Assembly (NCBI RefSeq): GCF_900176005.1
Contig: NZ_LT838272.1
Location: 2,437,587-2,501,586, forward strand
Direction of reading: 5' to 3'
Length of the DNA: 64,000 nucleotides
From: Thermanaeromonas toyohensis ToBE
GTDB taxonomy: Bacteria > Bacillota > DSM-521 > Neomoorellales > Neomoorellaceae
The notes below the pieces were generated by a model. That model was not told the origin of the DNA. It searched no databases and worked only from the letters and a program-made list of their open reading frames with translations. A program made the translations under genes and the position numbers. The stretch's first letter is position 1. Every line of letters starts with the position of its first letter. Shown one piece after another: positions 12,604 through 51,859 of the stretch.

Positions 12604-12690
12604 GGGGGTCCCTCCTCTTCCCGACCCCATTATAACAGCAGTGTAAGAAGCTTGTCAGCCCCTTTGTTCTTTTTATCTTTTAGCTTAGCC

Positions 12691-34321: not shown

Positions 34322-34354
34322 AAATTTATTACTCCAACATTACCTACCCTCAGT

Positions 34355-35029
34355 TTACTCTGGTGCTTCCTGGTAAATACTTAGCCCTGAACTCGTTCCC
34401 AGCCGGTTAGCCCCAGCTTCTAGCATTTTAACCGCATCGGAATAGGTGCGGATACCACCAGAAGCCTTTACTCCGGCCTTATCCCCCACCACCTGCCGGA
34501 TAAGGCGGACATCTTCCACTGTAGCGCCAGGGCCATTAAAACCTGTACTCGTCTTGATAAAATCTGCCCCTTCTTCTAAAGCTAACCGGGTGAGGATAAG
34601 CTTTTCTTGTTCCTCTAGAAGGCAGGTCTCAATAATAACTTTGACAACTGTATCTTTATTTTTGGTTTTGGCCGTTTGGATAATCTCTTTTAACTCACGC
34701 CTTATATAATCCTCTGCCCCGCTTTTAAACAGACTTAAGTTTATAACCATATCTATCTCTGCGGCCCCATTATCTATGGCTTCGCTGGCCTCCAGAACTT
34801 TATTTCTAATGGTGGTAGCGCCCAAGGGAAAACCTACAACCGTACAAACTCTTATCCCAGATCCTTCTAAGAGCTTAGCCGCCCAAGGTACATAGCAAGG
34901 ATTAAGGCAGACGCTAAAGAAACCGCACTCTAATGCTTCGTTGCAAAGCCTCTCTATATCCCTTTGAGTAGCCACCGGCTTAAGCAGAGTGTGATCGATT
35001 ACCGCGGCTATTTTTCTTTTATTCCACAT
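34355..35029 (-). CDS. deoC: deoxyribose-phosphate aldolase
   Basis: A 224-residue class I aldolase splitting 2-deoxyribose-5-phosphate into glyceraldehyde-3-phosphate and acetaldehyde. The Schiff-base lysine (V-K-V-I-I-E-T) and second lysine (G-V-K-A-S-G-G-I-R-T) segments are intact. It ends the nucleoside catabolic run deoB-pdp-deoC. Confidence 0.96.
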   Translation of the reverse strand: MWNKRKIAAVIDHTLLKPVATQRDIERLCNEALECGFFSVCLNPCYVPWAAKLLEGSGIRVCTVVGFPLGATTIRNKVLEASEAIDNGAAEIDMVINLSLFKSGAEDYIRRELKEIIQTAKTKNKDTVVKVIIETCLLEEQEKLILTRLALEEGADFIKTSTGFNGPGATVEDVRLIRQVVGDKAGVKASGGIRTYSDAVKMLEAGANRLGTSSGLSIYQEAPE

Positions 35030-35103
35030 GCTAAAAGTTCCCCTTTCTAGTTTAAAATGCCTCTTTTCTTTAGGATTAGCGGTGCCGCTGGTTTGTTTCT
35101 CCT

Positions 35104-36408
35104 CTAAGATACCTCTTCCAAGATAAGGGGTAAAGGCGGAAGAGGAGTAGAAGATAATTTAATACATGCTTTAAGTTCCTCTAGAGCGACCTTTAGCCTG
35201 TTCTCATCATTAGCATAAACAGTGACGATGGGCTTCCCTTTATCTATCCGGTCCCCCACTTTACCACCTAGCACCAGCCCTACTGCTAGATCTATCTTCT
35301 CCCCTTTCTTTTCTCTCCCGGCACCCAATTTCATGGCTACCTGTCCTAACCTTTCAGCTGGGAGCTCAGCTAGATAAACCTCTTCTTTAGCCAGCCAGCT
35401 CTCTTTAAAGCGGGCCTGGGGTAAAAGATTTAGATCTTCTACTACTCGCCCCTCTCCCCCTTGGGCTAAGATAAACTCTCGGAACTTCTCTAACGCTTTC
35501 CTACTTACTAGGGCTTCTTTTAATTTCTTTTTGCCTTCCTCTTTATCCTTAGCCTTGCCGCCCAGCACTAGCATAGCGCTTCCCAGCTCCAAGCAAAGGT
35601 TTATTAGATCTTGAGAGCCCTCGCCGCGCAAGACCTGTATGGCTTCCGCTACTTCTAAACTATTGCCTATGGCTAATCCCAAAGGTTGGTCCATATTGGT
35701 GATGTACGCTATTGTTCTACGACCCACAGAACGCCCTATCTCTACCATAACTTGGGCGAGCTTCCTGGCGGAAGGCAAATCCTTCATAAAGGCACCTTGC
35801 CCCACTTTAACATCCAAGACTATCGCATCCGCACCAGCGGCAATCTTCTTACTCATTATGGAACTCGCTATAAGAGGGATGGAATCCACCGTAGCCGTGA
35901 CATCCCGCAGGGCGTATAATTTCTTGTCTGCTGGGGTCAGTTCTTCAGTTTGGCTAGCTATAGCTATCCCATACCTTTTCACATTTTCTTTAAATTCTTC
36001 TAGGGAAAGCTCTACCTTTAATCCTGGTATAGACTCTAACTTATCTATAGTACCTCCTGTATGCCCTAGCCCCCGGCCGGATAGTTTAGCTACCGGTACC
36101 CCGCAAGAAGCAACCAAAGGCGCAAGCACCAAAGTAGTGGTATCCGCCACACCCCCTGTACTGTGTTTATCCACTTTTATCCCTGGGATAGAGGATAGAT
36201 CAAGCCTTACTCCCGAATCCACCATGGCCAGGGTTAAATTTACTGTCTCCTCTATATTCATACCCTGAAAATAAATGGCCATGGCCAGCGCTGCCATCTG
36301 GTAATCAGGTATCTCGCCGGAGGTGAAGCCTTTAACAATAAACTCAATCTCCTGGCGGCTGAAAACCCCTCCATCCCTCTTTTTCTTTATTAAGTCGTAC
36401 ATCCTCAT
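35104..36408 (-). CDS. pdp: pyrimidine-nucleoside phosphorylase
   Basis: A 434-residue phosphorylase that splits uridine/thymidine to base and (deoxy)ribose-1-phosphate. The signature K-H-S-T-G-G-V and [16 protein letters not shown] are present, and the length fits the bacterial Pdp/DeoA family. It overlaps deoB by four bases. Pdp (broad specificity) rather than DeoA is preferred because this is a Firmicute. Confidence 0.93.
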
Positions 36409-37586
36409 AATAATCCCTCCAATGCTTCTAGAAAGGACTTCCCATACGGGGGAGGTTGGACCTTAAAATTCTCGGCTATGGTAGCTGCTACATCGGCATA
36501 AGTTTCTCGGGCACCCAGATCTATACCCTGCCGCCAAGAAGGGCTATAAGCTAGCAAGGGTACATACTCGCGGGTATGGTCTGTCCCAAAAGCTGTAGGA
36601 TCGCAGCCGTGATCAGCAGTTATAAACATAAGATCATTATAATTTAATTCCGCCATCAAAACTGGAAGGTTTTGATCAAAAAACTCTAAGGCTTGAGCAA
36701 AGCCATAAACGTCTCGTCGATGTCCATAGAGGGTATCAAAATCTACCAAGTTAGTCCATATTAAACCTCTTTTCATCATCCGCAGGGCCTTTAAAGTAGT
36801 CTCTATGCCTTCCTTATTTCCTGAGGTATGAAGGCTATAGGTAATGCCCCTTCCCGCAAAAATATCCTCTATTTTACCTATACCATATACTTCTAATCCA
36901 GCCTCTTTAAGGTTATCTAAAACTGTGGGTCGGGGAGGGGGAAGAGAAAAGTCCCTTCTTCCTTCCGTCCTCACAAAACTCCCTGGCTTTCCTCGAAAAG
37001 GCCTGGCTATTACCCTAGCGACCATATGCTCTCCTGTTAATATTTCTCTGGCTACCTGACAAAGCCAGTAAAGCTCTTCCAAAGGGATTACCTCTTCATG
37101 GGCAGCAATCTGAAACACACTATCAGCAGAGGTATATATTATAGGAAAGCCTGTCTTAATATGGAACTCTCCTAATTCCTCGATTATTTCCGTGCCTGAG
37201 GCAGGTTTATTACCCAAAGTTTTTCTCCCTGTTCGCCTTTCAAACTCCTTTATAATTTCTTTGGGAAAACCGGCTGGGTAAGTAGGAAAAGGTTTTGTAA
37301 GCCAAAGCCCGGCTAATTCCCAGTGCCCAGTTGTGGTATCTTTCCCGGCCGATTTTTCGGCCATCTTGCCATAGGCCCCTATAGGATTTTTACTTGGAGG
37401 TATACTCGGTAGCTGAATTATATGGCCTAGACCAAGACGTTCTAAATTTGGTAGTCTAATCTTAGTTATTGCAGAGATATGCGCCAAGGTATTAACTCCA
37501 ATATCTTTATAGCGAAAAGCGTCGGGTAATTCTCCTACTCCTACGCCATCTAGCACTATTAATAAAACTCTTTGGAACATAGGCAC
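36405..37586 (-). CDS. deoB: phosphopentomutase
   Basis: A 393-residue alkaline-phosphatase-superfamily mutase converting (deoxy)ribose-1-phosphate to the 5-phosphate. Metal-site motifs [22 protein letters not shown] and T-A-D-H-G-C-D-P are intact. It is coupled to pdp by overlap. Confidence 0.97.
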
Positions 37587-37601
37587 CCCAGCGTTTCTTC
37601 T

Positions 37602-38321
37602 TTACCTCTTTCGCACTACATAAAACCTAAATTTAGTAGCATTAAAGTAGTTAGAGGAATATAAAATAGGTGTATTAGATTCGTCAAAATGTACTTGTTC
37701 TAAGAGAAGTAGGATATCTCCCTTTTTAAACTTCAACTTTTTTTCCGCCACAGTTTCATGTTTTAACGGTATAATCTCCGCTAAAGCATGCGTGATTCTA
37801 ACATTGCAGAAGGATTCCAGAAAATCGAAAAGGGATTCTTCAACTTGAGGTAGTGTAGGGCCAATAATACTCTCTGGCAATCTATCTATACAATAAACTA
37901 CGGGTATACCATCAGCTGTCCTGACTCTCTCTATCCGGTAGATTAAACTTCCTGGATTTATACCTAGATACTGAGCCTCATTATCCCGCGCCGGGACTTT
38001 TTCTACTTTAAAATCTAGAGTCCCAGGAACTCTCCCCTGCCTTCTTATAAGGGAAGTGACGCTAAAAAGTTCTTCCAGTCCACCTTCAATTAACGGTCTT
38101 CTTTTAACAAAGGTACCCAGGCCTTGGTGTTTAATAATAAGACCTTCTTCTTCTAAAATCCGCAAGGCCTCGCGCAAGGTTACCCTGCTTACCCCGAAGC
38201 TTTTAGCTAATACCGTCTCTGAAGGCAGCTGTTGCCCCTCTTGCCACTCCCCTCTTTTTATCTTCTCCTTGATTTCTCTTAGCACAATTTCATAAAGCGG
38301 TCTCCTATCAACTAACGCCAC
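37602..38321 (-). CDS. GntR/HutC-family regulator
   Basis: A 239-residue repressor with an N-terminal winged helix (S-E-T-V-L-A-K-S-F-G-V-S-R-V-T-L-R-E-A-L) and a C-terminal UTRA effector domain. It lies inside the nucleoside transport/catabolism run, between a permease gene and deoB, so it is the best candidate for the regulator that binds the palindromes at 43128, 44354 and 44634, with a nucleoside or sugar phosphate as effector. Confidence 0.9.
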   Translation of the reverse strand: MALVDRRPLYEIVLREIKEKIKRGEWQEGQQLPSETVLAKSFGVSRVTLREALRILEEEGLIIKHQGLGTFVKRRPLIEGGLEELFSVTSLIRRQGRVPGTLDFKVEKVPARDNEAQYLGINPGSLIYRIERVRTADGIPVVYCIDRLPESIIGPTLPQVEESLFDFLESFCNVRITHALAEIIPLKHETVAEKKLKFKKGDILLLLEQVHFDESNTPILYSSNYFNATKFRFYVVRKR

Positions 38322-38344
38322 CTTAAGAAACCACCTCCTCCGTT

Positions 38345-39259
38345 TTATCCCTCATCGCGGCCATAAGGTATTCCATCAGCAGCCGGTGGCCTGGCTTTAA
38401 GAAATACGCCCGCCAAGACTACCAGAGTTAAAACATAAGGGATCATTTTGATAAATTGGTAAGGAACAAAGCCGCTCTCTACCACTCGCAGGCTTAAAGC
38501 TTCCGCAAACCCAAAAAGTAAAGCTGCCCACATAGCTCCTACTGGCGACCAATTACCAAAAATCATAGCCGCCAGTCCTATATAACCCTTGCCCTGGGTC
38601 ATCCCCTCTACATACATGCCTGTGTGCTCGATGGAAAGATAGGCCCCGGCCAGGCCAGCTAAAATCCCGCTAATGAGCACGCCGCTATAGCGGAACAGAT
38701 ATACATTGATCCCCAGAGTATCGGCAGCCAAGGGATTTTCGCCCACTGAGCGCAGCCTCAATCCAAACACTGTCTTTTGAATAACCCAGTAACTTACAGG
38801 GACCAAAACAAATCCTAGTACTATCAGGGGTGATAGGTTGGTAAAGAGAACACCAAGATAGGGTATCCTATCCAGCAATGGAATATTTAGGGGGCTAAAG
38901 CTATCTACATGGGGGCTCATGGTCGCTTTCTCAAAAAGGGCAAGGCAAGAAAACCTGGCCGCCCCATAGGCCAAGATATTTAAAGCCACGCCACTCACGA
39001 TTTGATCCACCCGGAAAGTCACGGTGACCAGGGCATGGATAAAGGCTAATACCACAGAAGCAAAAATGGCCAGCAGCACTCCCACCAAGGGCCCATAATA
39101 ATAGGTGCCTACCGCGCCCCAGAAGGAGCCCGTAATCATCATCCCTTCCAGTGCTATATTAACTATCCCACTCCGTTCGGAATACACTGCTCCTAAGGCT
39201 GCTAAAAGAATAGGGATGGTTAGCCGTATAGATGAAGCCAATAACTCCACGATGCTCAT
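38345..39259 (-). CDS. nucleoside ABC transporter permease (NupQ-like)
   Basis: A 304-residue BPD_transp_2 permease with about eight to nine helices (E-R-S-G-I-V-N-I-A-L-E-G-M-M; V-G-E-N-P-L-A-A-D-T-L-G-I). These motifs belong to the BmpA-dependent nucleoside importers. Three bases separate it from the second permease gene. Confidence 0.9.
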   Translation of the reverse strand: MSIVELLASSIRLTIPILLAALGAVYSERSGIVNIALEGMMITGSFWGAVGTYYYGPLVGVLLAIFASVVLAFIHALVTVTFRVDQIVSGVALNILAYGAARFSCLALFEKATMSPHVDSFSPLNIPLLDRIPYLGVLFTNLSPLIVLGFVLVPVSYWVIQKTVFGLRLRSVGENPLAADTLGINVYLFRYSGVLISGILAGLAGAYLSIEHTGMYVEGMTQGKGYIGLAAMIFGNWSPVGAMWAALLFGFAEALSLRVVESGFVPYQFIKMIPYVLTLVVLAGVFLKARPPAADGIPYGRDEG

Positions 39260-39262
39260 ATC

Positions 39263-40378
39263 TTAAGCTGCCTCCTTCTTTTCCATCCGCCGGATGTAGC
39301 GGCCCAAAACCTCAGAAACCACTACAATGCTTAAAATCATAATGCCTTGAAGGATAATAACGGTATCCATGGGAACTCCTTCAAAAGCCTGCACTCCCTC
39401 AGCCCCCCGGTTTAAGAAAGCAAAAAGTATAGCCGCCAGAATAATCCCTAAGGGGTGATTTTTGCCCATAAGGGCTACAGCGATCCCGGTAAACCCGTAG
39501 CCTTTAGGGAAATCAAGATCTAGATAGCCAAAATAAGAAAGCAAATCGCTTAAGCCCGTCAAACCCGCTATAGCCCCGCTTAAAAGAAAGGCTTTTACAT
39601 AAATGGAGGTAGGATTTATCCCCGCTGCTTCTGCAGCAGCAGGGTTTAACCCTACAGCCCTTAATTCATATCCAAAAGGTGTGCGCCATATTAGGAAATA
39701 CACGCCTAATGCTGTAAGCAAAGCAAGAGGGAAGAACCAGTTAAGATATACATGCTTAGGCAAATCTATGCCGAAAAGGGCCAAGAAACTATGCATCTTG
39801 GGCATCAAAGCTGTAGGAGCTAATTTAGGCATTCGTACTAAAGAGCTCCCCACACCAGGAGCCAATCCTGGCTGCTTGTCTAAGAATATATCGGCAATAA
39901 AATAGTGAATCAAAGCTAAGGAAATATAATTTAACATAATAGTGCTTATCACTTCATGTACCTGTCGCTTCACCTTTAAATAAATAGGAAGAATGGTCCA
40001 CAGCATACCGCCTAAGCTGGCCATTAAGATAACAAGCGGCAGATGTAGCTCAAAGGGCAATCCTTTTATACTAAAACCGGCTAGGGCAGCCAAAAAAGCA
40101 CCTATTAAATACTGGCCTTCTACTCCAATATTAAAAAGTCCCGCCTTAAAGCCTACAGCTACTGCCAGGCCTGAAAAGATTAAAGGGGTGGCCCCAAACA
40201 AAATTATGGCTATACTATCCAGCCGGCTAAAGCCGAAGGTAAACATGGTAGAGTAAACTTTTAAAGGGTCCTTTTTGATTAATAAGATAACCAGTGCTCC
40301 TATAAAAGTGGCCACTAAAATAGCAAGCAAAGGAGCAGTTAAGTGGAAAAATAAATACTTGGCCTTTTTAAGCTTCAT
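39263..40378 (-). CDS. nucleoside ABC transporter permease (NupP-like)
   Basis: A 371-residue BPD_transp_2 permease with F-K-A-G-L-F-N-I-G-V-E-G-Q-Y and A-V-G-L-N-P-A-A-A-E-A-A-G-I. It pairs with the permease at 38345-39259 and overlaps the ATPase gene by eleven bases. Confidence 0.9.
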   Translation of the reverse strand: MKLKKAKYLFFHLTAPLLAILVATFIGALVILLIKKDPLKVYSTMFTFGFSRLDSIAIILFGATPLIFSGLAVAVGFKAGLFNIGVEGQYLIGAFLAALAGFSIKGLPFELHLPLVILMASLGGMLWTILPIYLKVKRQVHEVISTIMLNYISLALIHYFIADIFLDKQPGLAPGVGSSLVRMPKLAPTALMPKMHSFLALFGIDLPKHVYLNWFFPLALLTALGVYFLIWRTPFGYELRAVGLNPAAAEAAGINPTSIYVKAFLLSGAIAGLTGLSDLLSYFGYLDLDFPKGYGFTGIAVALMGKNHPLGIILAAILFAFLNRGAEGVQAFEGVPMDTVIILQGIMILSIVVVSEVLGRYIRRMEKKEAA

Positions 40379-41915
40379 CAGCTAGTCTCCTCACTTTCTC
40401 CTCCTGCGACTTCAACTTGGCACCTAACATAAAATGACCAATCTCTTCTATGCTAACTTCTCCGGGGACGAACTCGGCCACGAGTTCTCCATTATACATC
40501 ACGCCCACCCGGTCGCTAAGGGAAAGCACCTCGCTTAAATCAGCTGAAACGAGCAAAACAGCGCATCCTTTTTCCCTAGCTTTTAAAAGTTGCTGGTGAA
40601 CAAATTCAGTAGCTCCTATATCCAAGCCTCGCGTGGGTTGGGAAGCAATAATTAGTTGCGGTTCCCAATCTAATTCCCGTCCCAAGATTACCTTTTGCTG
40701 GTTTCCTCCAGATAGGTTCCTTATGGGCAATTCCATAGAACTTAAGCGCACATCAAATTTCTTAATGATTTTATCAGCATACTGCCGAATAGAAGCAAAC
40801 TTTAAAGAAAAGGGGGAGGAAAAAATACTCAACCGGTGTCTCCCAAGGATGGCATTTTCCCATACACTCATCGGAAGGATAAGTCCTCTATGATGGCGAT
40901 CTTCGGGTATATAGCCCGTACCTAGGGATTTTATCTCGGCTACTGTCTTGTTATTAACTGCCTGGCCGGAAATTAAAATTCGGCCTTCCACAGGTTTCTT
41001 AAGGCCCACCAGGGCTTCTACCAGTTCCGATTGCCCGTTCCCTTCAATTCCCGCAATACCATATATCTCCCCATCCCTTATGCTAAAACTTACTCCTTTC
41101 ACGGCAACGCGGCCTGAACTGCCTAAAACAACTAGCTTCTCTACTTTTAGCCTTTCCTGACCTGGCTTAACCGGAGCTTTGACCAAATTCAAAAATACGG
41201 GACGGCCTACCATCATCTCCGAAAGCTTTGCTTTATCTGTATCCTTAGCTAGAACTGTCCCCATAAGCTTCCCCTGGCGCAATACAGAAATCCGATCAGC
41301 TATCTCTAAAACTTCTTCCAGCTTATGGCTTATAAATATAATAGTCTTGCCTTCGTTTTTAAGATGCCTAAGATTAACAAAAAGCTCCTTTACTTCCTGA
41401 GGAGCTAAAACGGCCGTGGGCTCATCCAGTATCAATATCTTAGCTCCCCGGTAAAGAACTTTTAGAATTTCCACCCTTTGCTGCTGACCTACAGAAAGGT
41501 TTTCTACCCGAGCATTAAGATCCAAGGCAAACTCGTAACGCTCACACATCTCTTTTACCTGCTGGTAGGCCGCTTTTTCTTTTAAGACCCCTACCGTAGC
41601 AACTTCTGCCCCCAAGATAATATTCTCTAAAACTGTAAACCGAGGGATTAACATAAAATGCTGATGCACCATACCGATGCCCAAACTTATAGCTCTCCGC
41701 GGGCTAACTATATTAACTTTTTTGCCCTCTAGATAAATCTGGCCTTTATCGGGTTGGTAAAGCCCGCATAAGATCTTCATCAAGGTGCTTTTACCCGCGC
41801 CATTTTCCCCTACTATGGCATGGATTTCACCTTTGGCTATCTCCAGGGTAATATTATCATTGGCCACAATACCAGGAAATCTCTTGGTAATCCCTTCTAA
41901 CTTGATGCTTATCAT
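40368..41915 (-). CDS. nucleoside ABC transporter, double ATPase (NupO-like)
   Basis: A 515-residue tandem ABC ATPase. The first half has Walker A G-E-N-G-A-G-K-S-T, signature L-S-V-G-Q-Q-Q-R and Walker B I-L-I-L-D-E-P; the second has degenerate Walker A G-I-E-G-N-G-Q-S and signature L-S-G-G-N-Q-Q-K, as in RbsA/NupO. It energises import through the two permeases. Confidence 0.92.
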   Translation of the reverse strand: MISIKLEGITKRFPGIVANDNITLEIAKGEIHAIVGENGAGKSTLMKILCGLYQPDKGQIYLEGKKVNIVSPRRAISLGIGMVHQHFMLIPRFTVLENIILGAEVATVGVLKEKAAYQQVKEMCERYEFALDLNARVENLSVGQQQRVEILKVLYRGAKILILDEPTAVLAPQEVKELFVNLRHLKNEGKTIIFISHKLEEVLEIADRISVLRQGKLMGTVLAKDTDKAKLSEMMVGRPVFLNLVKAPVKPGQERLKVEKLVVLGSSGRVAVKGVSFSIRDGEIYGIAGIEGNGQSELVEALVGLKKPVEGRILISGQAVNNKTVAEIKSLGTGYIPEDRHHRGLILPMSVWENAILGRHRLSIFSSPFSLKFASIRQYADKIIKKFDVRLSSMELPIRNLSGGNQQKVILGRELDWEPQLIIASQPTRGLDIGATEFVHQQLLKAREKGCAVLLVSADLSEVLSLSDRVGVMYNGELVAEFVPGEVSIEEIGHFMLGAKLKSQEEKVRRLADEA

Positions 41916-41995
41916 AAAGGCATCCCTTTCACTATATTTAATTGATCGAGGTGGTGGGAAGACACCCCCACCACCTCACTATCTTGGAAAACTTC

Positions 41996-43096
41996 CTATT
42001 TAGAAAGCTTATTCTCAAACTCGCTTAATTCTTGCTTACTAGCAGGAACCTTTATTTCACCTGTTTCGATCTTCTTCTTTAATTCTTCCAGTTTCCCCTT
42101 TATATCTTTGAGCATTTCCTCGTTATACTGATTAACCGCATACCCTACTCCATTCTCAGCTATGCCAAAAATACGATATCCGCCTTTAAATTTATTTTCC
42201 AAGGTAGCCTTAATGGTATCATATACCGCGACATCTACTCTTTTGAGCATGCTCGTCAAAATGTAAGGCCTCTGATCCGGTTTAGCGGTTAACGACTGGT
42301 CGGAATCGACACCTATGACTAATTTCTTTTGGGAGGCAGCCGCCTCTATCACCCCTACCCCTGAAGCGCCGGAGGCATGATAAATAACATCAGCGCCGTT
42401 CTTAATCTGGGAAAGGGCTAATTCTTTACCTTTAACAGGATCCTTAAAAGCTTCACCAGTGGTACCTATATAGTCGGAAAGGACTTCGATCTTCGGATTT
42501 ATATATTTAGCTCCTGCAATATAACCTGCTTCAAATTTTTCAATAAGAGGTATCTTCATACCCCCGATGAAACCTATTTTATTGGTCTTAGTCTTTAAGG
42601 CAGCAGCAGCCCCCACCAAGAAGGAACCCTCGTTTTCTTTAAACAATAAACAACTGACATTGGAATCTTCTTTTAAATCAGGTATATACCCGTCGATTAA
42701 GCCAAACTTTGTCTGGGGAAATTCATTAGACACTTTTTTGATATGATCAGTAAACATAAACCCTACGCCGAAAATTAAATCGTACTTATCCTCGGCTAAA
42801 AGGCGTAACAGCTGCTCCCGGTTTTCTCCTCCTGCGGAAGGTTCTAGATATTTAATTTCGATTTTATCCCCAAAATCCTTCTTGGCTTTTTCTAAACCTG
42901 CATAGGCAGCATCATTAAAGGAGAGGTCCCCACGGCCACCCACGTCAAAAACAAGCCCCACGCGTAAAGGTTTGGTCCCTTTGGCTCCTTCTTGAGAAGA
43001 GCCCTGATTGGAGGCAGTTTTCTGGCCGCAACCAGCTAGTATAACACTAACAATAAGCAACAAGACTGTTAACCAACCAACTAGCTTTAATCGCAT
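41996..43096 (-). CDS. BMP-family nucleoside-binding lipoprotein
   Basis: A 366-residue BmpA/Med-like binding lipoprotein: signal peptide with lipobox L-A-G-C (Cys23), and the PF02608 fold (L-R-V-G-L-V-F-D-V-G-G-R-G-D-L-S-F-N-D, I-G-F-I-G-G, Y-H-A-S-G-A-S-G-V-G). The family binds purine nucleosides. It is the first gene of the importer/catabolism run, preceded by a palindrome at 43128-43151. Confidence 0.92.
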   Translation of the reverse strand: MRLKLVGWLTVLLLIVSVILAGCGQKTASNQGSSQEGAKGTKPLRVGLVFDVGGRGDLSFNDAAYAGLEKAKKDFGDKIEIKYLEPSAGGENREQLLRLLAEDKYDLIFGVGFMFTDHIKKVSNEFPQTKFGLIDGYIPDLKEDSNVSCLLFKENEGSFLVGAAAALKTKTNKIGFIGGMKIPLIEKFEAGYIAGAKYINPKIEVLSDYIGTTGEAFKDPVKGKELALSQIKNGADVIYHASGASGVGVIEAAASQKKLVIGVDSDQSLTAKPDQRPYILTSMLKRVDVAVYDTIKATLENKFKGGYRIFGIAENGVGYAVNQYNEEMLKDIKGKLEELKKKIETGEIKVPASKQELSEFENKLSK

Positions 43097-43127
43097 CTCT
43101 TCCCACCCTTTTCTTTTTTAGTTTAAC

Positions 43128-43151
43128 AAGATTTTAGTTTACTAAAATCTT
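43128..43151 (-). promoter_or_regulatory. palindrome upstream of the nucleoside importer operon
   Basis: AAGATTTTAG and CTAAAATCTT, exact complements, flank TTTA. The core TTAG-N4-CTAA is shared with the two operators at 44354 and 44634, which suggests a common repressor. No T-run follows, so it is not a good terminator. Confidence 0.5.
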
Positions 43152-43223
43152 CCACTACCCATTTTACTTTAAGCCCTGCTTTTTAGCTCACTTTCCCTTC
43201 CCTTCACCCCCTTCTAAATTGAG

Positions 43224-44321
43224 TTATATTTTAAGAGGATAAGTACCGTAATCTTTAGCCGCTTCATACATAGCTAAGATGTTTTCTACCGGAGTATCAG
43301 GTTGGATATTATGGGTAGGTGCAAGTATAAATCCGCCTCCTTTTCCCGCCTGCTTGATGCGCAATTTAACCTCCTCTTTCACCTCTTCAGGGGTGCCCTG
43401 CGGGAGCACTCCTTGCACGTCAACACCACCGAAAAAGGCTAGCTGATTACCATATTTCTCCTTTAAGAAAGCCAAATCCATACCTGCGGCCTGGGGCTGA
43501 ATAGGGTTTAAAACCTCCACTCCTACTTCAATGAGGTCTTCAATAATGGGCATAATAGAACCGCAGGAATGATAAGCAATGATAATCTCCTTATTTACAG
43601 CCTTTAAAGCATCGATTATTTTCTTTTGCCGCGGTTTAAATACTTGGCGATATAAAGCAGGAGAAATAAGCATACCCCGCTGGGTTCCAAAATCATCTCC
43701 CAAAAGAATAACTTCAGCCCCTAGCTCAATTAACTTGCGCCCTACCGTAATATGAAAATCCAATATGCGATCTATCAGGGCTTCAACATATGGCTTTTGC
43801 CAAAGAAGATCTACCAAAAACTTTTCCAGGCCCACCAGGATCCAAGCTAGTTCGAACATAGTTACTTCCAAAATTCCTATAATAGCGTAATCATTTCCAT
43901 ACTTTTTAACCATCTTTTCTGCTACTTCAAACCGGCCAGGAGCCAGAGGCTCCGGAAACTCGTAAGCATTAAGATCAGCGATACTCTCTACCTCGCTAAG
44001 GGGACGTACGACAGCCTCTGTGTAGTACCCCACCTCCCGGAACTGTATCCCCCATTCATCTATAAGATGGCCATTGGGAAGGCGCTTGGTAGGCTTACTC
44101 CGGTCCCGACCAGGACCTATAGCAACGGCATCATTGCCTAAAGCAAGGAGTATCTCGGTATAAGATAACCGATCGGAAAGGAAGGCATCTACAGGTTGGC
44201 TAGGTAGCCCCATTATTTCTCCTAACTTTTGAGCTACCTGGGGTGTTAAGGTAGCAAAAATGGGAACCCTATCTGGCTCTTGCCTCCTGGCCGCTTTTAA
44301 AAACCTAGCTTTGGGTTTCAC
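43224..44321 (-). CDS. UroD-superfamily protein (uroporphyrinogen decarboxylase/methyltransferase-like)
   Basis: A 365-residue URO-D fold protein. Such proteins outside haem operons are often cobalamin-dependent methyltransferase subunits (MtaA/CmuA type). H-S-C-G-S-I and P-T-H-N-I-Q-P-D-T-P are present; the first is a plausible zinc-site segment. True HemE N-terminal arginine motifs are not evident. It is transcribed away from the double 5'-nucleotidase gene, and both promoters carry the same operator, so its role may be linked to nucleotide or methylated-nucleoside use. The substrate is unknown. Confidence 0.75.
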   Translation of the reverse strand: MKPKARFLKAARRQEPDRVPIFATLTPQVAQKLGEIMGLPSQPVDAFLSDRLSYTEILLALGNDAVAIGPGRDRSKPTKRLPNGHLIDEWGIQFREVGYYTEAVVRPLSEVESIADLNAYEFPEPLAPGRFEVAEKMVKKYGNDYAIIGILEVTMFELAWILVGLEKFLVDLLWQKPYVEALIDRILDFHITVGRKLIELGAEVILLGDDFGTQRGMLISPALYRQVFKPRQKKIIDALKAVNKEIIIAYHSCGSIMPIIEDLIEVGVEVLNPIQPQAAGMDLAFLKEKYGNQLAFFGGVDVQGVLPQGTPEEVKEEVKLRIKQAGKGGGFILAPTHNIQPDTPVENILAMYEAAKDYGTYPLKI

Positions 44322-44353
44322 TGCTTGTCGCTCCCAAACACAAGATGGTTATC

Positions 44354-44402
44354 TTGTTAGTTGTCTAACAACATTATAATATTTTTTATCACACAGGCTC
44401 AA
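44354..44402 (-). promoter_or_regulatory. promoter and operator A of the UroD-like gene
   Basis: Minus strand TTGAGC (44402-44397), an 18-base spacer and TATAAT (44378-44373), followed by the palindrome TTGTTAG-N4-CTAACAA (44371-44354). The operator would cover the transcription start, so repression is expected. Confidence 0.8.
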
Positions 44403-44603
44403 AGTTAAAGGAAGGTTAAGTACTAAAGTTACCTGCTTCTTTTTTATTTTAACTTCGAATTAAGCTGTCTACCTTATCGAAATACCTAAGGACAAATTTC
44501 TTGTGTCTTTCATTAAAAATAATCAAATATCTAAGAGAAAGAAAAAGAAAGGTTTAAAGGTAAAAAAAGGAGTAAAATTGTGGTACTTATCTACTTGTAG
44601 CTT

Positions 44604-44651
44604 TTGTAAGCAAAGGATTAAGTCAATATAATATTGTTAGACAGCTAACAA
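44604..44651 (+). promoter_or_regulatory. promoter and operator B of the 5'-nucleotidase gene
   Basis: TTGTAA (44604-44609), a 17-base spacer and TATAAT (44627-44632), followed by TTGTTAG-ACAG-CTAACAA (44634-44651). Same arms and same placement relative to the -10 box as operator A. Confidence 0.82.
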
Positions 44652-44754
44652 CTGGTTAGGGTTAACTTAAAACAAGTCCGGGAGGTGGGATAGATAGGAA
44701 CAAGGGGTAATAAACATTAGGTATAATTTCGCTTAAAAAGGGAGGGAGACGTTT

Positions 44755-47700
44755 ATGCTTTTAAAAAGATCAAAATTAATTTCTCTGTTAATTATTATTG
44801 TATTGTTTAATCTTTTCTCCATTTCCCCCCTGCCTTTGCTGGCCGAGGAGCAAAACTCTTCTTACGAGCTTGTTATTTTAGCCACCACTGACCTGCATGG
44901 TAATATTTACCCTTGGGATTACTACAAAAATGCTCCCGCTAATTACGGGTTAGCAAAAATAGCTACTCTCGTTAAAGAAATCCGAGCTAAATATCCTAAT
45001 GCCCTGCTTTTCGATAATGGCGATTTAGTCCAAGGGACCCCGTTAGCTTATTATTATGCCCGAGTGAACCCGCTAAAGGAAAATGAAGTTCACCCCATAA
45101 TTGCTGTTATGAATTACATAGGGTATAATGCAGCTACTATTGGCAATCACGAGTTCAATTATGGGTTACCCTTCTTGGAGCAAGTCATCAAAGGTGCCAA
45201 GTTCCCTTATGTTTTGGCTAATGTCTATAAAAGCGGGACCACTATACCCTATTTCACTCCTTATACCATTATCGAAGTACCCTTAGGTAAAGATAAAGTA
45301 AAGGTAGGGGTAATTGGGTTTACCCCTCCAGGAATAATGATATGGGACCGGGCTAACCTGGAAGGGAAAGTTGAGACCGGGGATATTATAGAAGCAGCTA
45401 AGCGCTTTATCCCAGAAATGAAAGCTAAGGGAGCCGATGTTATTGTAGCTTTGGCTCATTCTGGAATAAGTGGCACTTCCAGTTACGATGAAAAAGCTAC
45501 AGGTTTAGGAGTAGAAAATGCCGTTAAGCTATTAGCCCAACAAGTAGACGGTATAGATCTAATAATTGCGGGACATAGCCACCAGGAAATCCCGGGAAAG
45601 GTTTTGCCTAATCCTCTGGTAGGCAATACCTTAATCCTGCAACCGGGTTATTGGGGTAACAATCTAGCGTGGGCAAAATTGACCCTAGAAAAAACAGAAA
45701 CAGGCTGGAAAGTAATAGAGCGGAACGGTAAACTGCTCTCCACAAAAGACATAGGACCAGACCCGGAAGTTCTAAGCATAGCTCGCGAAGCTCACGAAAA
45801 AACCCTTAAGTTTGTAACTACACCTTTAGGAAAGACCGAAACACCTATCACTACTTATTCTGCCAGGTTAGCTGATACAGCCGCTATCCAGCTCATAAAT
45901 GAAATCCAGATGGAGAGGGTAAAAGAAGCTTTAAAGGGGACCAAGTATGAAAATCTGCCCATCATCTCTGCCGCAGCACCCTTTAAAGCCGGTCGCAATG
46001 GGCCTACAGACTTTACTGATATACGTCCTGGTCAAATTACCATGGCTGATGTAGCTTCCCTTTATATTTACGATAATACTCTGGTAGCCATTAAAATTAA
46101 TGGAGCTCAGCTTAAAGCATGGTTAGAACACGCGGCGGAAAATTTCCGACAAGTTGTACCTAGTTCAGGAACAGAAGCTTTGATTAATACCAGCTTCCCT
46201 GCTTATAATTTCGATCAAATTGATGGAGTGAGTTATGTAATTGATATTACCAAGCCCGTTGGGGAACGCATTGTTGAACTCACTTATAATGGCCAGCCGG
46301 TTACCCCACAGCAAGAATTCATTTTAGTAACGAATAATTACCGCGCCGGCGGCGGGGGTAATTTCCCAGGTACAGGCAAAGAGGCTGTTATAGTTTATGA
46401 TCGTCAAGAAGAAACCAGAGTGCTGATCGCGGACTTCATTAAAAAACATGAGTCTATCAGCCCCTGGCCAGATTATAACTGGCGTATTAAGGAAAACTTT
46501 TTAAACCACTGGGCAGCTAAGCCAGCCACTACTTTGCTTAATCGTGGAATTCTTCGTGGAGATGCTGAAGGCCGACTTTTCTTAGATAAGCCAACCACGC
46601 GGGCTGAATTTGTCACTTTACTTATCCGCTCTTTGGGGGATCGGCTGTTGGATGCTTCCAATCCCTTCCAAGACATAAAGAACCACTGGGCGGAAAAATA
46701 TATCACCACAGCAGCAGCTCTAGGTATTACTAGCGGTATCGGCGAAGGCAAGTTTGGCCCCGATAACTTCATCACCAGGCAAGAAGCTATAAGTATGATA
46801 ATTAGAGCACGGCTACAACCAGGGGAACTGGATAACCAATCTACAACTGCACTTTCCGCCTTTAAGGATGGAGATAGGGTTGCTCCGTGGGCTATGCGTG
46901 CCTTATCCTTCGCCATTGAACATGGTATTTTGGGAGGTTATGAAACCGGTGAGCTACGGCCAGAAGCCCCCTTGCTCCGGGGCGAAGCAGCTAAGATAAT
47001 TTACCTTAGTATCCCTGAGCTTCTGCCGCCGAATCAAGCTAAGCTTACGTTAATCACCCTCAACGATTTTCATGGCCGGCTAGAAGAGGATCCGAAAAAG
47101 GCAGCTGGTGCACCTTTAGGGGCGGCTAGACTGACTACAGCTCTATTAGGGGAAAAATGGCTTAATCCGGGAGGAGTTCTCCTCTTAAATGCTGGTGATA
47201 CTTATCAAGGTACCCCCATTTCCAACCTTGTATATGGCCAATCAGTGAATGAATGGCAAAACCTAGTAGGATTTAATGCTATGACCATTGGAAATCATGA
47301 GTTTGATTGGGGAGTAAAAGTTCTTAAACAGAGGATAAAAGAAGCAAACTTCCCTGTAATTGCAGCCAATATTTATGATAAGACTACCAACCAGCCGGTT
47401 GACTGGATCAAGCCAACTGCTATCCTCCAGGCAGCAGGCGTCAAAGTTGGAATTATAGGAGCTACCACCCAGGAAACGGCCAGTATCGTTATGCCTGCTA
47501 ATGTGGAAGGACTTAAGTTCCCCAACCCGGCTTCTCGCTTTGATGAGCTGGTATCGGAGCTAAAAGGGGGCGGGGCAGAGGTAGTTATAGGCTTAACCCA
47601 TCTGGGTTCCGAGGTAACCTCTACCGGGGAATTAGCAGGTGAAGCTAGAGATGTTTTGGATCAAATGAAGGACCACCTTGATGCCTTAATTACTGGCCAT

Positions 47701-48564
47701 ACTCATCGCGAGATAGCTACTATTTATAAAGGCACTCCAGTAGTTCAAGCCCTTTCCTATGGCAAAGCTTATGGAAAAATCGAGCTTTATTATGATAAAC
47801 AATTGAAAAAGGTGGTACGGGCTAGTGTAGAGGTAATTAAACCCAGTCCTACCCTGTATCCTAATCCTGAAGCCAGCTCCTTGGTACAAAAGTGGAAAGA
47901 GGTTATTGGGCCAAAAGTTAATACTGTTATAGCTAGAACAGTCGTGCCATTAAGCAAAACCTTTACTTCTGCAGGAGAATCAGTCCTAGGGGATCTAATT
48001 GCCGACGCCCAGCGTTATACTTTAGGTGCCGACATAGCTATCATGAATGGTGGCGGCATCCGGGCAGATATTAACCTGGGAGATATAACCTGGGGCGAGC
48101 TCTATAGCGTACAGCCCTTCGGGAACGTTCTTTTCAAGGTCCCCTTAACAGGGGCCCAAATCAAGCAAGTATTGGAAGAAGGTATAGAGAATTACTATCG
48201 CCTTTACAATAAGCTACCCCGTGGGCATTTACCGGTGCAGGTATCCGGGATAAAGTTTACCTGGGACTATAACAAGCCTTTTGGGCAAAGAATCATCCTC
48301 ACTTCCCTTAAGCTAGAAGATGGTTCTCCTTTGGATCTAAACAAGACTTATATTGTCGCTGTCAATGAATTTGTGGCCACAGGAGGAGATGATTTCAACA
48401 CTTTTAAGACCCTATATGAGGCAGATAAAAAAGGATATTATGCACGGTACTATACCGGGATAGTAGATCTAGACGCTTTGATCGCCTATCTACAAAAGCT
48501 TCCTCAGCCAATAAAATATAACCTGCAAAACCGCATTGCGGTGGTTAACTTCCCTGGGCCATAA
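44755..48564 (+). CDS. surface-anchored double nucleotidase: CpdB-like + SLH domains + UshA-like
   Basis: A 1269-residue secreted protein. Signal peptide (about 1-30); a CpdB/YfkN-type metallophosphoesterase with its nucleotidase C-domain (about 35-575; T-T-D-L-H-G-N, N-G-D-L-V-Q-G-T, G-N-H-E-F, G-H-S-H); two to three S-layer homology repeats (about 590-755); and a second, UshA-type 5'-nucleotidase (about 765-1265; N-D-F-H-G-R, G-D-T-Y-Q-G-T, G-N-H-E-F-D, G-H-T-H-R-E, N-G-G-G-I-R-A-D). It resembles Bacillus YfkN, but the wall-binding SLH repeats sit between the enzymes rather than at an end. It would degrade extracellular cyclic nucleotides and nucleotides to nucleosides for the Bmp importer. 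ATG 44755 follows GGGAGG. Confidence 0.92.
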   Translation: MLLKRSKLISLLIIIVLFNLFSISPLPLLAEEQNSSYELVILATTDLHGNIYPWDYYKNAPANYGLAKIATLVKEIRAKYPNALLFDNGDLVQGTPLAYYYARVNPLKENEVHPIIAVMNYIGYNAATIGNHEFNYGLPFLEQVIKGAKFPYVLANVYKSGTTIPYFTPYTIIEVPLGKDKVKVGVIGFTPPGIMIWDRANLEGKVETGDIIEAAKRFIPEMKAKGADVIVALAHSGISGTSSYDEKATGLGVENAVKLLAQQVDGIDLIIAGHSHQEIPGKVLPNPLVGNTLILQPGYWGNNLAWAKLTLEKTETGWKVIERNGKLLSTKDIGPDPEVLSIAREAHEKTLKFVTTPLGKTETPITTYSARLADTAAIQLINEIQMERVKEALKGTKYENLPIISAAAPFKAGRNGPTDFTDIRPGQITMADVASLYIYDNTLVAIKINGAQLKAWLEHAAENFRQVVPSSGTEALINTSFPAYNFDQIDGVSYVIDITKPVGERIVELTYNGQPVTPQQEFILVTNNYRAGGGGNFPGTGKEAVIVYDRQEETRVLIADFIKKHESISPWPDYNWRIKENFLNHWAAKPATTLLNRGILRGDAEGRLFLDKPTTRAEFVTLLIRSLGDRLLDASNPFQDIKNHWAEKYITTAAALGITSGIGEGKFGPDNFITRQEAISMIIRARLQPGELDNQSTTALSAFKDGDRVAPWAMRALSFAIEHGILGGYETGELRPEAPLLRGEAAKIIYLSIPELLPPNQAKLTLITLNDFHGRLEEDPKKAAGAPLGAARLTTALLGEKWLNPGGVLLLNAGDTYQGTPISNLVYGQSVNEWQNLVGFNAMTIGNHEFDWGVKVLKQRIKEANFPVIAANIYDKTTNQPVDWIKPTAILQAAGVKVGIIGATTQETASIVMPANVEGLKFPNPASRFDELVSELKGGGAEVVIGLTHLGSEVTSTGELAGEARDVLDQMKDHLDALITGHTHREIATIYKGTPVVQALSYGKAYGKIELYYDKQLKKVVRASVEVIKPSPTLYPNPEASSLVQKWKEVIGPKVNTVIARTVVPLSKTFTSAGESVLGDLIADAQRYTLGADIAIMNGGGIRADINLGDITWGELYSVQPFGNVLFKVPLTGAQIKQVLEEGIENYYRLYNKLPRGHLPVQVSGIKFTWDYNKPFGQRIILTSLKLEDGSPLDLNKTYIVAVNEFVATGGDDFNTFKTLYEADKKGYYARYYTGIVDLDALIAYLQKLPQPIKYNLQNRIAVVNFPGP

Positions 48565-48586
48565 TGCAAGGATCTCTATTATAGGA

Positions 48587-48634
48587 AATTAAGGGATCAA
48601 TAGGATAAATCCTCATTGATCCCTTAAATTTTTT
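48587..48634. terminator. bidirectional terminator between the nucleotidase gene and psuG
   Basis: AATTAAGGGATCAAT (48587-48601) pairs with ATTGATCCCTTAAATT (48615-48630) and runs into TTTTTTC on the plus strand; AATT/TTTCC on the other. The right arm contains the psuG stop codon. The genes are convergent. Confidence 0.85.
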
Positions 48635-49562
48635 CTTTACAACTGCTATAAAGTTTGTTGAGTTCTACCGCTATCTTAGCCCCCACAGAAGCATTATTTT
48701 TGACAAGCTCTATATTGGCTCTAAGGCTCTTACCCCCTGTTATTTCTGCTACTTTCTCTAGCAAAAACGGGGTGAGGCCTTTCCCTTTTATTGCCAATCT
48801 TTCTGCTTCCACCAGGGCTTCTTCTATAACCTTACTTATGTAATTTTTATCGAGAGCGTATTCTTTAGGTATGGGGTTGGCTATTACAATACCTCCCGTT
48901 AGCCCTAAATCCCACTTTGTCTTTATCACTCTAGCTGCCTCCACCTCGTCTGCCAATACATAGTCCACCTTGAGGCCGCTCTCCCTAGTATAAAAGGCGG
49001 GAAACTCCTCTGTCCTAAAGCCTAGCACCGGAACCCCGTAGGTCTCTAAATATTCAAGGGTTAGGGGTAAATCCAGTATCGCCTTGGCTCCTGCACATAC
49101 AACTGCCACGCTGGTTTTAGCTAGCTCCTGCAAATCTGCCGAAATATCGAAAGTCTGAGGCCCCCCTTTATGGACACCCCCTATCCCTCCGGTGACGAAT
49201 ACTTTTATCCCGGCCAGGTGTGCAGCAATCATGGTCGCTGATACGGTGGTGGAAGCGCACAATCCCTTGGCTATGACTACGGGTAAGTCCCTGCGGCTTG
49301 CTTTTAGGACCCTATTAGAGGTAGCTATAAATTCGAGCTCTTCGTTTGTTAAACCTATCTTTATCCTTCCCTCGATAATGGCAATTGTGGCGGGGACAGC
49401 CCCGCTATCCCTTATAATCTCTTCTACTATTTTTGCTGTTTTTACGTTTTCAGGATAGGGCATACCATGGGATATTATGGTGGATTCCAAGGCCACTATA
49501 GGTTGCCCCTGATCTTTGGCCTTCCTCACTTCTTCTGAGAAAACAAGGTAGTTAATCCCCAT
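48624..49562 (-). CDS. psuG: pseudouridine-5'-phosphate glycosidase
   Basis: A 312-residue PsuG that reversibly joins/splits uracil and ribose-5-phosphate. The family segments A-L-E-S-T-I-I-S-H-G-M-P, V-T-G-G-I-G-G-V-H-K-G and F-P-A-F-Y-T-R-E-S-G are present. It starts three bases after psuK, which makes its substrate, and extends the nucleoside salvage theme. Confidence 0.96.
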   Translation of the reverse strand: MGINYLVFSEEVRKAKDQGQPIVALESTIISHGMPYPENVKTAKIVEEIIRDSGAVPATIAIIEGRIKIGLTNEELEFIATSNRVLKASRRDLPVVIAKGLCASTTVSATMIAAHLAGIKVFVTGGIGGVHKGGPQTFDISADLQELAKTSVAVVCAGAKAILDLPLTLEYLETYGVPVLGFRTEEFPAFYTRESGLKVDYVLADEVEAARVIKTKWDLGLTGGIVIANPIPKEYALDKNYISKVIEEALVEAERLAIKGKGLTPFLLEKVAEITGGKSLRANIELVKNNASVGAKIAVELNKLYSSCKEKI

Positions 49563-49565
49563 AAT

Positions 49566-50660
49566 CTATATTACTCCTTTGACTGTACTCTTTAGCCTTT
49601 CTTCGCTCAAAAAAGGATTCACAGTATAGGGCGAGGAAATGGTTAGCGCCGCTGCTGCTAGGCCGAATTTCACCGAAAGGCGCAAGGTATAGCCATTGAA
49701 AAGGCCATACACCAGGCCAGAAGCAAAAGCATCTCCTGCCCCGGTAACATCTATCACTTCAGCTTCATAAGGTCTGATAAACTCTTCTCCTTCTTCAGAG
49801 GCAAGATAAACGCCTGTAGCTCCCAAAGTTACAATTACGGTTTTAACCCCCTTCTCACGTATGATTTTAGCCAGCCTCGGCACTTCCTCCCCAGGCGAGA
49901 CATCTAAAATAGCTGCTAATTCGCCTCGGTTAGGAGTGATATAGTCTATTTTATCTAATATCTCCCTTACTTTCCTCGCTTTTTCTATCGATACAGGATC
50001 AACCAGCAAGGAGATGTTTTCTTTACGGCATATCTCGGCTACATATTTCATGCTATCAGTTGGTAGGTTAGTATCCATGATTACTAATTCGCTATTCCTA
50101 ATTAGTTCCCTCTGCCCTTCCAGGTATTTAGCATCGCACTCTTCTAATACTTCCATCTGCGCTATACCGATCTCCATTTCTCCTTTAGCATCGAGCATGG
50201 CCAGAAAAACCCCTGTGGGTCTGGTAGGTGAGATTAGAACGTGTTCCACATTAACGCCAGCCCTCCTCGTCTCTTCCAATATTTTCCTTCCCTCGCCATC
50301 ATTGCCCACTACAGTCAACAGCGTAACAGGTACCTTTAACAGAGCAAGGTTGTGAGCGATATTCCGCGCTACCCCACCCAGGCTTATATCCACTTGGCCG
50401 GGATTGGAAGTATGCCTGATAAGCTCCTTAAAGGGGCGCCCTTTAATATCGATATTTGCTCCACCTATTACTACAACTCCCTTACTTTCCTTTACCACAT
50501 ACCCCCTTCCCAATATAAATCCTTTCTTCATAAGATTAGCAATATGGCCCGCAATAGCAGAACGGCTAAGGCCTAATATATTCGCCAGCTCTTCCTGGGA
50601 AACCATGGGGTTTCGTTTTATCAATTCTAATATTTCTTTTTCCCTTCTAGTTAGAGACAT
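49566..50660 (-). CDS. psuK: pseudouridine kinase (PfkB family) with N-terminal helix-turn-helix
   Basis: A PfkB-fold kinase whose first ~55 residues form a winged helix (S-Q-E-E-L-A-N-I-L-G-L-S-R-S-A-I-A-G-H-I). The kinase part has G-G-A-N-I-D, G-G-V-A-R-N-I-A-H-N and the catalytic D-V-T-G-A-G-D-A-F-A-S-G. With psuG adjacent, pseudouridine is the likely substrate. The fused DNA-binding domain suggests it may regulate its own operon. The ATG at 50660 follows GGGAG; the frame opens at 50693. Confidence 0.9.
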   Translation of the reverse strand: MSLTRREKEILELIKRNPMVSQEELANILGLSRSAIAGHIANLMKKGFILGRGYVVKESKGVVVIGGANIDIKGRPFKELIRHTSNPGQVDISLGGVARNIAHNLALLKVPVTLLTVVGNDGEGRKILEETRRAGVNVEHVLISPTRPTGVFLAMLDAKGEMEIGIAQMEVLEECDAKYLEGQRELIRNSELVIMDTNLPTDSMKYVAEICRKENISLLVDPVSIEKARKVREILDKIDYITPNRGELAAILDVSPGEEVPRLAKIIREKGVKTVIVTLGATGVYLASEEGEEFIRPYEAEVIDVTGAGDAFASGLVYGLFNGYTLRLSVKFGLAAAALTISSPYTVNPFLSEERLKSTVKGVI

Positions 50661-50707
50661 ATCAGCTGCTCCCAACAAAAGTTTGTTTTGCAAACAATTG
50701 TTAGTAA

Positions 50708-50736
50708 ATTATAAACCAGGCCAGATAACCTGTCAA
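50708..50736 (-). promoter_or_regulatory. consensus sigma-A promoter of psuK-psuG
   Basis: TTGACA (50736-50731), 17 bases, TATAAT (50713-50708): a perfect consensus. The start region downstream contains AACAATTGTT and GTTTG/CAAAC symmetry (50677-50706), including a TTGTTAG half-site like the operators at 44354/44634, so repression is likely. Confidence 0.9.
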
Positions 50737-50754
50737 GAAATATTGGCCCTTTTT

Positions 50755-50790
50755 CCAAAAACAAAGCGCTGGTCTCCAAACCAGCGCTCT
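50755..50790 (-). terminator. terminator of the dsrKJOPM operon
   Basis: AGCGCTGG and CCAGCGCT pair around an 8-base loop and are followed by TTGTTTTT on the minus strand, about 60 bases after the dsrM2 stop. Confidence 0.85.
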
Positions 50791-50846
50791 TAAAGGGGGC
50801 TAACTAGTATATGTCCCACATACCTCTAGTATATAATCCTCTTCCC

Positions 50847-51845
50847 CTAACTTGCCTCTTTTTCCACAGGTATACCCGCCATTTTCATCTTCTCCCGGAA
50901 TTCTTCCTCATACTCCTCGTAAGTATGCACCTTTACCGGGTAATTCCAGGGATTGATATGCCTTACAGCCCGGCTGTTGTTAGGCAGGTTCCGGGTAGGG
51001 GTTAAGAAGATCCCAGCCATATGGACCAGTTTACTAAAGGGGAAATAAGCTGCCAGGGCGCAAACCAGGAAGAAGTGGATGTAAAAAAGTACCCCGATAC
51101 CCTCTGGAACCCGGGGGTGGAAGGTAACCAACCCCAGGGCCAGTTCTTTAACAGCAGTCACATCCACGCCTAAAAAATAGCGCATGAGAACACCTGAAAG
51201 GCCTATCCCTAGGATTAAAAAGAGAGGGGTATAATCCGCAGGCAAGGAAATATAACGGACATGCGGGATAATAAGCCTTCTAAGCAAAAGATAAGTTACC
51301 GCAGCAAGGAATAATATATCTGTAATATATACAGCTCGTAAACTGATGCGGAAAAATCCATCTATCCCCTCAAGAAAAGAAACCCACCCGGGCACCGGGT
51401 CAGTAAAAAATCTTAAGTGCCGGAAAAGGATAATAAAGAAAGACCAATGGAACAAAAGCCCACCCAGCCATAACCACTTTTCCCAGTGATAGGTAAGCCG
51501 CGGTCCTTCCCTGAGTTCTGCCTTAGTATTGCGGAAAAGGGAACGGAAAAGGAAAACTTCGGAAGCCACCCTGGCAGCTGCACCTAAAGCAGTAGAGGGA
51601 TTATCCAAAAAGCTAGGCTTAATCCAGGGCAGCGATTTTTGCTGGCCACCTGTGGTGGGTATACGGAAGGGTACCGGTGAACTACCCCACTGCAAGATGC
51701 GGTACACCATCCCTCCGAGGAAGGTGGCCAGGGCTACATAGGGTACTACAACCCCAAAGAAGAATTTAAGCTTTAACACTTCTACCCCTATAACGGCCAC
51801 TAGGATGAGAGCCAAAACGATCCCTAGCGAAAAGACAATATCCAT
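50847..51845 (-). CDS. dsrM: DsrM, cytochrome b-like membrane subunit of DsrMKJOP
   Basis: A 332-residue NarI/DsrM-type membrane protein with about six to seven helices and histidines suited to b-haem binding (L-L-F-H-W-S-F-F-I, L-V-H-M-A-G-I-F). It is the last gene of its operon, whereas dsrM usually comes first; dsrKJOPM here is a rearranged order. A shorter DsrM is encoded at 5845-6516. Confidence 0.9.
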   Translation of the reverse strand: MDIVFSLGIVLALILVAVIGVEVLKLKFFFGVVVPYVALATFLGGMVYRILQWGSSPVPFRIPTTGGQQKSLPWIKPSFLDNPSTALGAAARVASEVFLFRSLFRNTKAELREGPRLTYHWEKWLWLGGLLFHWSFFIILFRHLRFFTDPVPGWVSFLEGIDGFFRISLRAVYITDILFLAAVTYLLLRRLIIPHVRYISLPADYTPLFLILGIGLSGVLMRYFLGVDVTAVKELALGLVTFHPRVPEGIGVLFYIHFFLVCALAAYFPFSKLVHMAGIFLTPTRNLPNNSRAVRHINPWNYPVKVHTYEEYEEEFREKMKMAGIPVEKEAS

Positions 51846-51859
51846 TTCCCCTTACCCCT

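Follow-up and report, generated by a model that had tools for sequence, protein, structure and literature searches.

Divergent promoters and predicted operators in the intergenic gap

The window, that is, the whole 64,000-nt stretch of DNA analysed here, contains a UroD-like gene (43224-44321, minus strand) and a surface nucleotidase gene (44755-48564, plus strand) that are separated by a 433-bp gap (Table 1). This gap holds two divergent sigma70-type promoters, each with the palindrome TTGTTAG-N4-CTAACAA 1 nt past its TATAAT box. The initial annotation had described identical operators behind the -10 boxes of two divergent promoters, and both were located at these positions, facing opposite genes. 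In gene direction, both read TATAAT-N-TTGTTAGACA[A/G]CTAACAA, and the two promoter-operator copies form a 25-nt inverted pair (92%). The operator-bearing promoters were the best two among six promoter-like sites in this stretch.

Table 1. Genes and predicted regulatory features at the locus (window positions)
Feature	Position	Strand	Evidence or remark
Operator 1, NupR-type, TTGTTAGTTGTCTAACAA (TTGTTAGACAACTAACAA in gene direction), predicted	44354..44371	-	Over UroD/nup promoter start
Operator 2, NupR-type, TTGTTAGACAGCTAACAA, predicted	44634..44651	+	Over nucleotidase promoter start
Sigma70-type promoter of UroD-led operon, TTGAGC-N18-TATAAT	44373..44402	-	Orthologous operons have the same TATAAT-G-TTGTTAGA junction
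Sigma70-type promoter of nucleotidase gene, TTGTAA-N17-TATAAT	44604..44632	+	
24-bp perfect palindrome AAGATTTTAGTTTACTAAAATCTT in UroD-Bmp gap, no T-run; not a NupR site	43128..43151	.	Motif ranks
UroD-superfamily protein (365 aa) that leads the operon; not HemE, probably a methyltransferase	43224..44321	-	Pfam URO-D 2.6e-36
Bmp/PnrA-like nucleoside-binding lipoprotein	41996..43096	-	Pfam Bmp 1.2e-75
Importer ABC transporter ATPase	40368..41915	-	Gene order shared with orthologous operons
Importer permease 1	39263..40378	-	Gene order shared with orthologous operons
Importer permease 2	38345..39259	-	Gene order shared with orthologous operons
GntR/HutC regulator, Bacillus NupR orthologue, proposed repressor of both promoters	37602..38321	-	GntR + UTRA domains; 57-62% identical orthologues, same operon and operator
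Phosphopentomutase (deoB-like)	36405..37586	-	Metalloenzyme superfamily; 59-68% identical to operon neighbours of orthologous regulators
Pyrimidine-nucleoside phosphorylase (pdp)	35104..36408	-	PYNP_C, Glycos_transf_3
Deoxyribose-phosphate aldolase (deoC)	34355..35029	-	DeoC
Surface-layer nucleotidase: CpdB-like 2',3'-cyclic phosphodiesterase/3'-nucleotidase, SLH repeats, UshA/5'-nucleotidase module	44755..48564	+	Profile matches

A genome-wide motif search, which the initial annotation had called for, returned two copies of the exact pattern TTGTTAG-N4-CTAACAA from the 3.33-Mb genome, and both lie within the 433-bp gap; about 0.01 occurrences are expected by chance (3.3e6/4^14). Degenerate matches numbered 52 genome-wide and 58 in a reversed control, showing no excess beyond the two operators. 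A scan of the genome with an 18-nt sequence model returned zero matches and missed the two known operators as well, so it carries no information on further sites. The near-palindrome TTATTAGTGTGCTAATAA was considered as a further genomic operator and rejected, as it sits within a coding region. The regulon visible in this genome consists of two promoters. An RNA hairpin in place of a DNA operator is unlikely, because the transcript start, judged by position, would fall inside the palindrome, so that a leader hairpin of both arms would not be expected. Separately, operator 1 is adjoined by another perfect palindrome of 7-N4-7 form, ACAAGAT-AACC-ATCTTGT (window 44340-44357, minus strand), which would fold as a hairpin in the UroD leader immediately ahead of the ribosome-binding site.

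The GntR/HutC regulator and the nup operon

The candidate regulator contains a GntR winged helix (PF00392) and a UTRA domain (PF07702), both above cut-off, and is encoded within a Bmp/ABC nucleoside-transporter operon whose gene order is common to clostridial and bacillar orthologues. Orthologues were found in a phylum sample and across the Bacillaceae, nearly always adjoining a Bmp/ABC nucleoside importer. In the closest of them (57-62% identity, family f67), the operon runs Bmp-ABC-permease-permease-GntR-(136-164-aa ORF, cdd-like)-deoB-pdp, and four genomes have TATAAT-G-TTGTTAGATGTCAGACAA in its promoter, while the operator shows one or two changes in two others; the operon promoter of genome G098 reads TTGTTAGACGTCAGACAA. 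In more distantly related orthologues, the 7-N4-7 layout past the -10 box is retained, and G350 shares the CTAACAA half of the window operators. These sites are a sample from several hundred genomes. In a tree, the window GntR protein groups with the orthologues and is by path nearest to f67, at a level of resolution that leaves its exact placement unsettled. None of 17 genomes of the same family as the window's carries the operator at this locus or a close GntR orthologue, so that the nup operon (window 34355-43096) may be either a gain here or a loss elsewhere.

Three motif tests addressed the relation between the operators and the orthologue sites. In a matrix of 15 orthologue sites built without the window, the operators ranked first and second among ~128,000 positions (16.7 bits); the seed of this matrix was the closest orthologues, picked after the window had been seen. 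As a guard against this choice, an unseeded EM run was performed on the orthologue promoters, and it again placed the operators first (20.4) and second (15.5), the next match scoring 11.3. With a matrix of the sites of Bacillus thuringiensis NupR confirmed by EMSA (PMC9430930), operator 1 ranked first and operator 2 sixth. The B. thuringiensis upp site GTAAGACAACTGAC matches GTTAGACAACTAAC at 12 of 14 bases. Compared with the orthologue sites, the window operators have greater symmetry (CTAACAA versus CAGACAA) and, at 16.7 bits, score below most of the training sites, which range from 15.6 to 28.6 bits and mostly exceed 20. Third among the NupR-like matches of the window is ACGGTCTAACATCTTACG (11998-12016); it lies inside an ORF (11539-12630) and is probably due to chance. 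In another genome that carries an orthologous regulator (G391), a NupR-type site, TTATTAGACGTCTGACAA, is found right where an ORF encoding a 273-aa protein begins (L289:2602-2619), a possible further regulon member.

The TTAG-N4-CTAA cores of the operators are simple, and A+T-rich palindromes are bound by many regulators, so the likeness to NupR sites might be coincidental and the operators might belong to another protein, such as the PsuK HTH domain or a protein of MarR or CRP type from an unlinked locus. PsuK (window 49566-50693) does have an N-terminal winged-helix domain. However, the orthologous GntR operons share the sequence, the spacing and the position past the -10 box at their promoters, the operators came out on top in the three motif tests, and the psuK promoter itself lacks a site, so that this explanation appears highly improbable. 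Instead, we consider it very probable that the GntR/HutC protein uses both palindromes as operators, as the initial annotation had proposed, within a model in which two units are repressed; this confidence pertains to the regulation and not to the function of the UroD-like protein.

Two other elements had been linked to the same regulon. The 24-bp palindrome ahead of Bmp exists and shares the 8-base TTAG-N4-CTAA core with the operators, but it ranked 507 or worse with both matrices and was rejected as an operator of the GntR regulator; it could separate UroD from Bmp. The psuK half-site was likewise rejected: it ranked 899 or worse, and the window contains 13 TTGTTAG heptamers in all, against ~8 expected by chance. 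Other short palindromes lie past the -10 box of the psuK promoter, for example TTGTTTGCAAAACAA, suggesting separate control.

The operon in the window is ordered UroD-Bmp-ABC-permease-permease-GntR-deoB-pdp-deoC and is closely spaced from Bmp onward. In the orthologous operons, the conserved promoter stands directly ahead of Bmp, or of GntR where GntR leads, whereas in the window it precedes the UroD-like gene, and Bmp comes 127 bp after UroD. Neither a promoter-like nor a terminator-like site was found on the minus strand of this UroD-Bmp gap. On the sequence evidence, the simplest reading is that the left promoter would be the nup-operon promoter, with UroD inserted as the first cistron, and UroD and Bmp would then be carried on one transcript. 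Placing the UroD promoter in a nucleoside regulon is supported, but UroD does not read as a unit of its own next to a Bmp operon under different control.

Surface nucleotidase and a proposed two-unit repression model

The product of the plus-strand gene is a 1269-aa protein with two Metallophos domains, two 5_nucleotid_C domains and SLH stretches, and it scored 641.8 against the CpdB model PRK09420, above the cut-off of 486. Four f67 genomes carry the NupR-type site ATATCAGATGTCAGACAA, which was upstream of a similar nucleotidase gene in all three of those whose surroundings were opened (1225 aa in G104). In G350, an SLH-nucleotidase region and the Bmp operon next to it each have a NupR-type site right past the -10 box. 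Together, these site patterns suggest that nucleotidase and importer share a regulator in at least three lineages. The proposal of one nucleoside-scavenging regulon is therefore well matched by the predicted operators at the nup-operon and nucleotidase promoters, and membership of the nucleotidase gains from the reappearance of NupR-type sites at nucleotidase genes in two other lineages.

We propose that a GntR/HutC dimer would sit over the start site of each promoter and repress both units, to be released by an inducer that signals abundant nucleosides. The first unit would be the nup operon from UroD to deoC, including the regulator's own gene, and the second the surface nucleotidase, which would make nucleosides from extracellular nucleotides and 2',3'-cyclic nucleotides and so feed the nup-operon importer. 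The UroD-like gene would be an accessory insertion downstream of the nup promoter and ahead of Bmp. The assignment of the operators to this GntR protein has comparative support; repression, autoregulation, co-transcription and the inducer are parts of the model reached by inference.

The closest characterized system is NupR (NagR2) of B. thuringiensis, an autoregulated GntR/HutC repressor of nucleoside uptake that is encoded in a nucleoside-transporter operon (PMC9430930). Its sites, for example GGTCAGACATCTTACGT and GAAGTAAGACAACTGACGA, are similar to the window operators. B. thuringiensis NupR controls nupC permeases and the nup operon, whereas the second target in the window would be the surface nucleotidase, and the window operon begins with a UroD-like gene. 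Zinc is reported as its effector and a purine riboswitch is present in the leader (PMC9430930); in contrast, no Rfam match, and no riboswitch like that of nupR, was found in the window leader or elsewhere across 34000-52000. The Bmp/ABC operons of thermophilic clostridia (L215-L230, L092) have the same Bmp-ABC-permease-permease-GntR order, deoB and pdp, and a similar promoter-operator junction, but they lack the UroD-like gene, and in most of them GntR is followed by an additional ORF of 128-164 aa (cdd-like), which is absent from the window.

The UroD-like protein

The UroD-like protein matches Pfam URO-D and has the same fold as uroporphyrinogen decarboxylase, which would allow a second such enzyme or another tetrapyrrole enzyme. 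Against this, it scored 32.6 bits with the hemE equivalog model (cut-off 302.95), its operon lacks haem genes, and both its sequence and its fold are nearer to methylcobamide:CoM methyltransferase; we give a tetrapyrrole function almost no credence. Its AlphaFold model (pLDDT 90.4) had as best PDB fold match 4ay8/4ay7, a methylcobamide:CoM methyltransferase (TM 0.72 and 24% identity with 4ay8). The protein is not HemE, and its model is closest to methylcobamide:CoM methyltransferase.

It shares with MtaA/MtbA and the corrinoid O-demethylases the fold, the H-x-C motif (H251, C253) and, for some homologues, a corrinoid-cassette context. However, it falls far under the model cut-offs for the MtaA/CmuA subfamily (111.8 against 235.4 bits), MtaA and MtbA. 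The S-methyltransferases of the UroD superfamily have His-Cys-Cys zinc ligands (PMC10418091), whereas the position of the third Cys is here a His, in an APTH motif, and the full ligand set is thus not present. Unlike in those systems, no corrinoid protein adjoins the gene, nor does an activator; since the genome has eight B12-binding_2 matches, a partner corrinoid protein acting in trans is possible.

The best relative of the protein is 47% identical. Its homologues occur in two settings: beside corrinoid and pterin-binding proteins in methyl-transfer cassettes, and in operons with sugar or ribose-type transporters and kinases. In one case (L097:1-3752, G017), the UroD-like gene, 40% identical, comes immediately after an IF-2B-family gene and two phosphorylase-superfamily genes, a gene group that resembles methylthioadenosine salvage. 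The sugar and ribose-type transporters and phosphorylase-superfamily genes suggest carbohydrate or nucleoside substrates, and a methyl-transfer role is plausible, in agreement with predicted fold, family and gene context.

Nevertheless, none of the other nup operons examined contains the gene, it has no close relative, and the importer genes elsewhere work without it. It could therefore be a chance passenger behind the nup promoter with a function unrelated to nucleosides, such as use of another methyl donor, a reading to which we give somewhat less than an even chance. Its intact frame directly behind the promoter-operator, and the recurrence of homologues in sugar or ribose-type transporter operons and once by phosphorylase-superfamily genes, argue the other way. 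A corrinoid-dependent zinc methyltransferase with its partner corrinoid protein encoded elsewhere, which would demethylate methylated nucleosides or their sugars and pass the methyl group to one-carbon metabolism, is the reading of its function that we favour, though at clearly less than even odds. Its narrower form, a corrinoid-dependent demethylase acting on methylated nucleosides, such as the 2'-O-methyl ribonucleosides released by RNA turnover, or on their sugars, seems rather unlikely. Overall, demethylation of methylated nucleosides or sugars is a fair hypothesis, with a passenger gene about as likely. In the literature searched, we found no published work linking UroD-family proteins to nucleoside operons.

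Together, these observations would extend the NupR regulon, known from Bacillus, to thermophilic clostridia and suggest a recurrent coupling, through this regulon, of nucleoside import with a secreted nucleotidase. A UroD-superfamily enzyme under a nucleoside repressor would point to a concrete substrate class for a large family that recurs in sugar and nucleoside uptake operons. If the protein is indeed a nucleoside demethylase, a nucleoside repressor would govern how this anaerobe obtains one-carbon units from the RNA that it scavenges.
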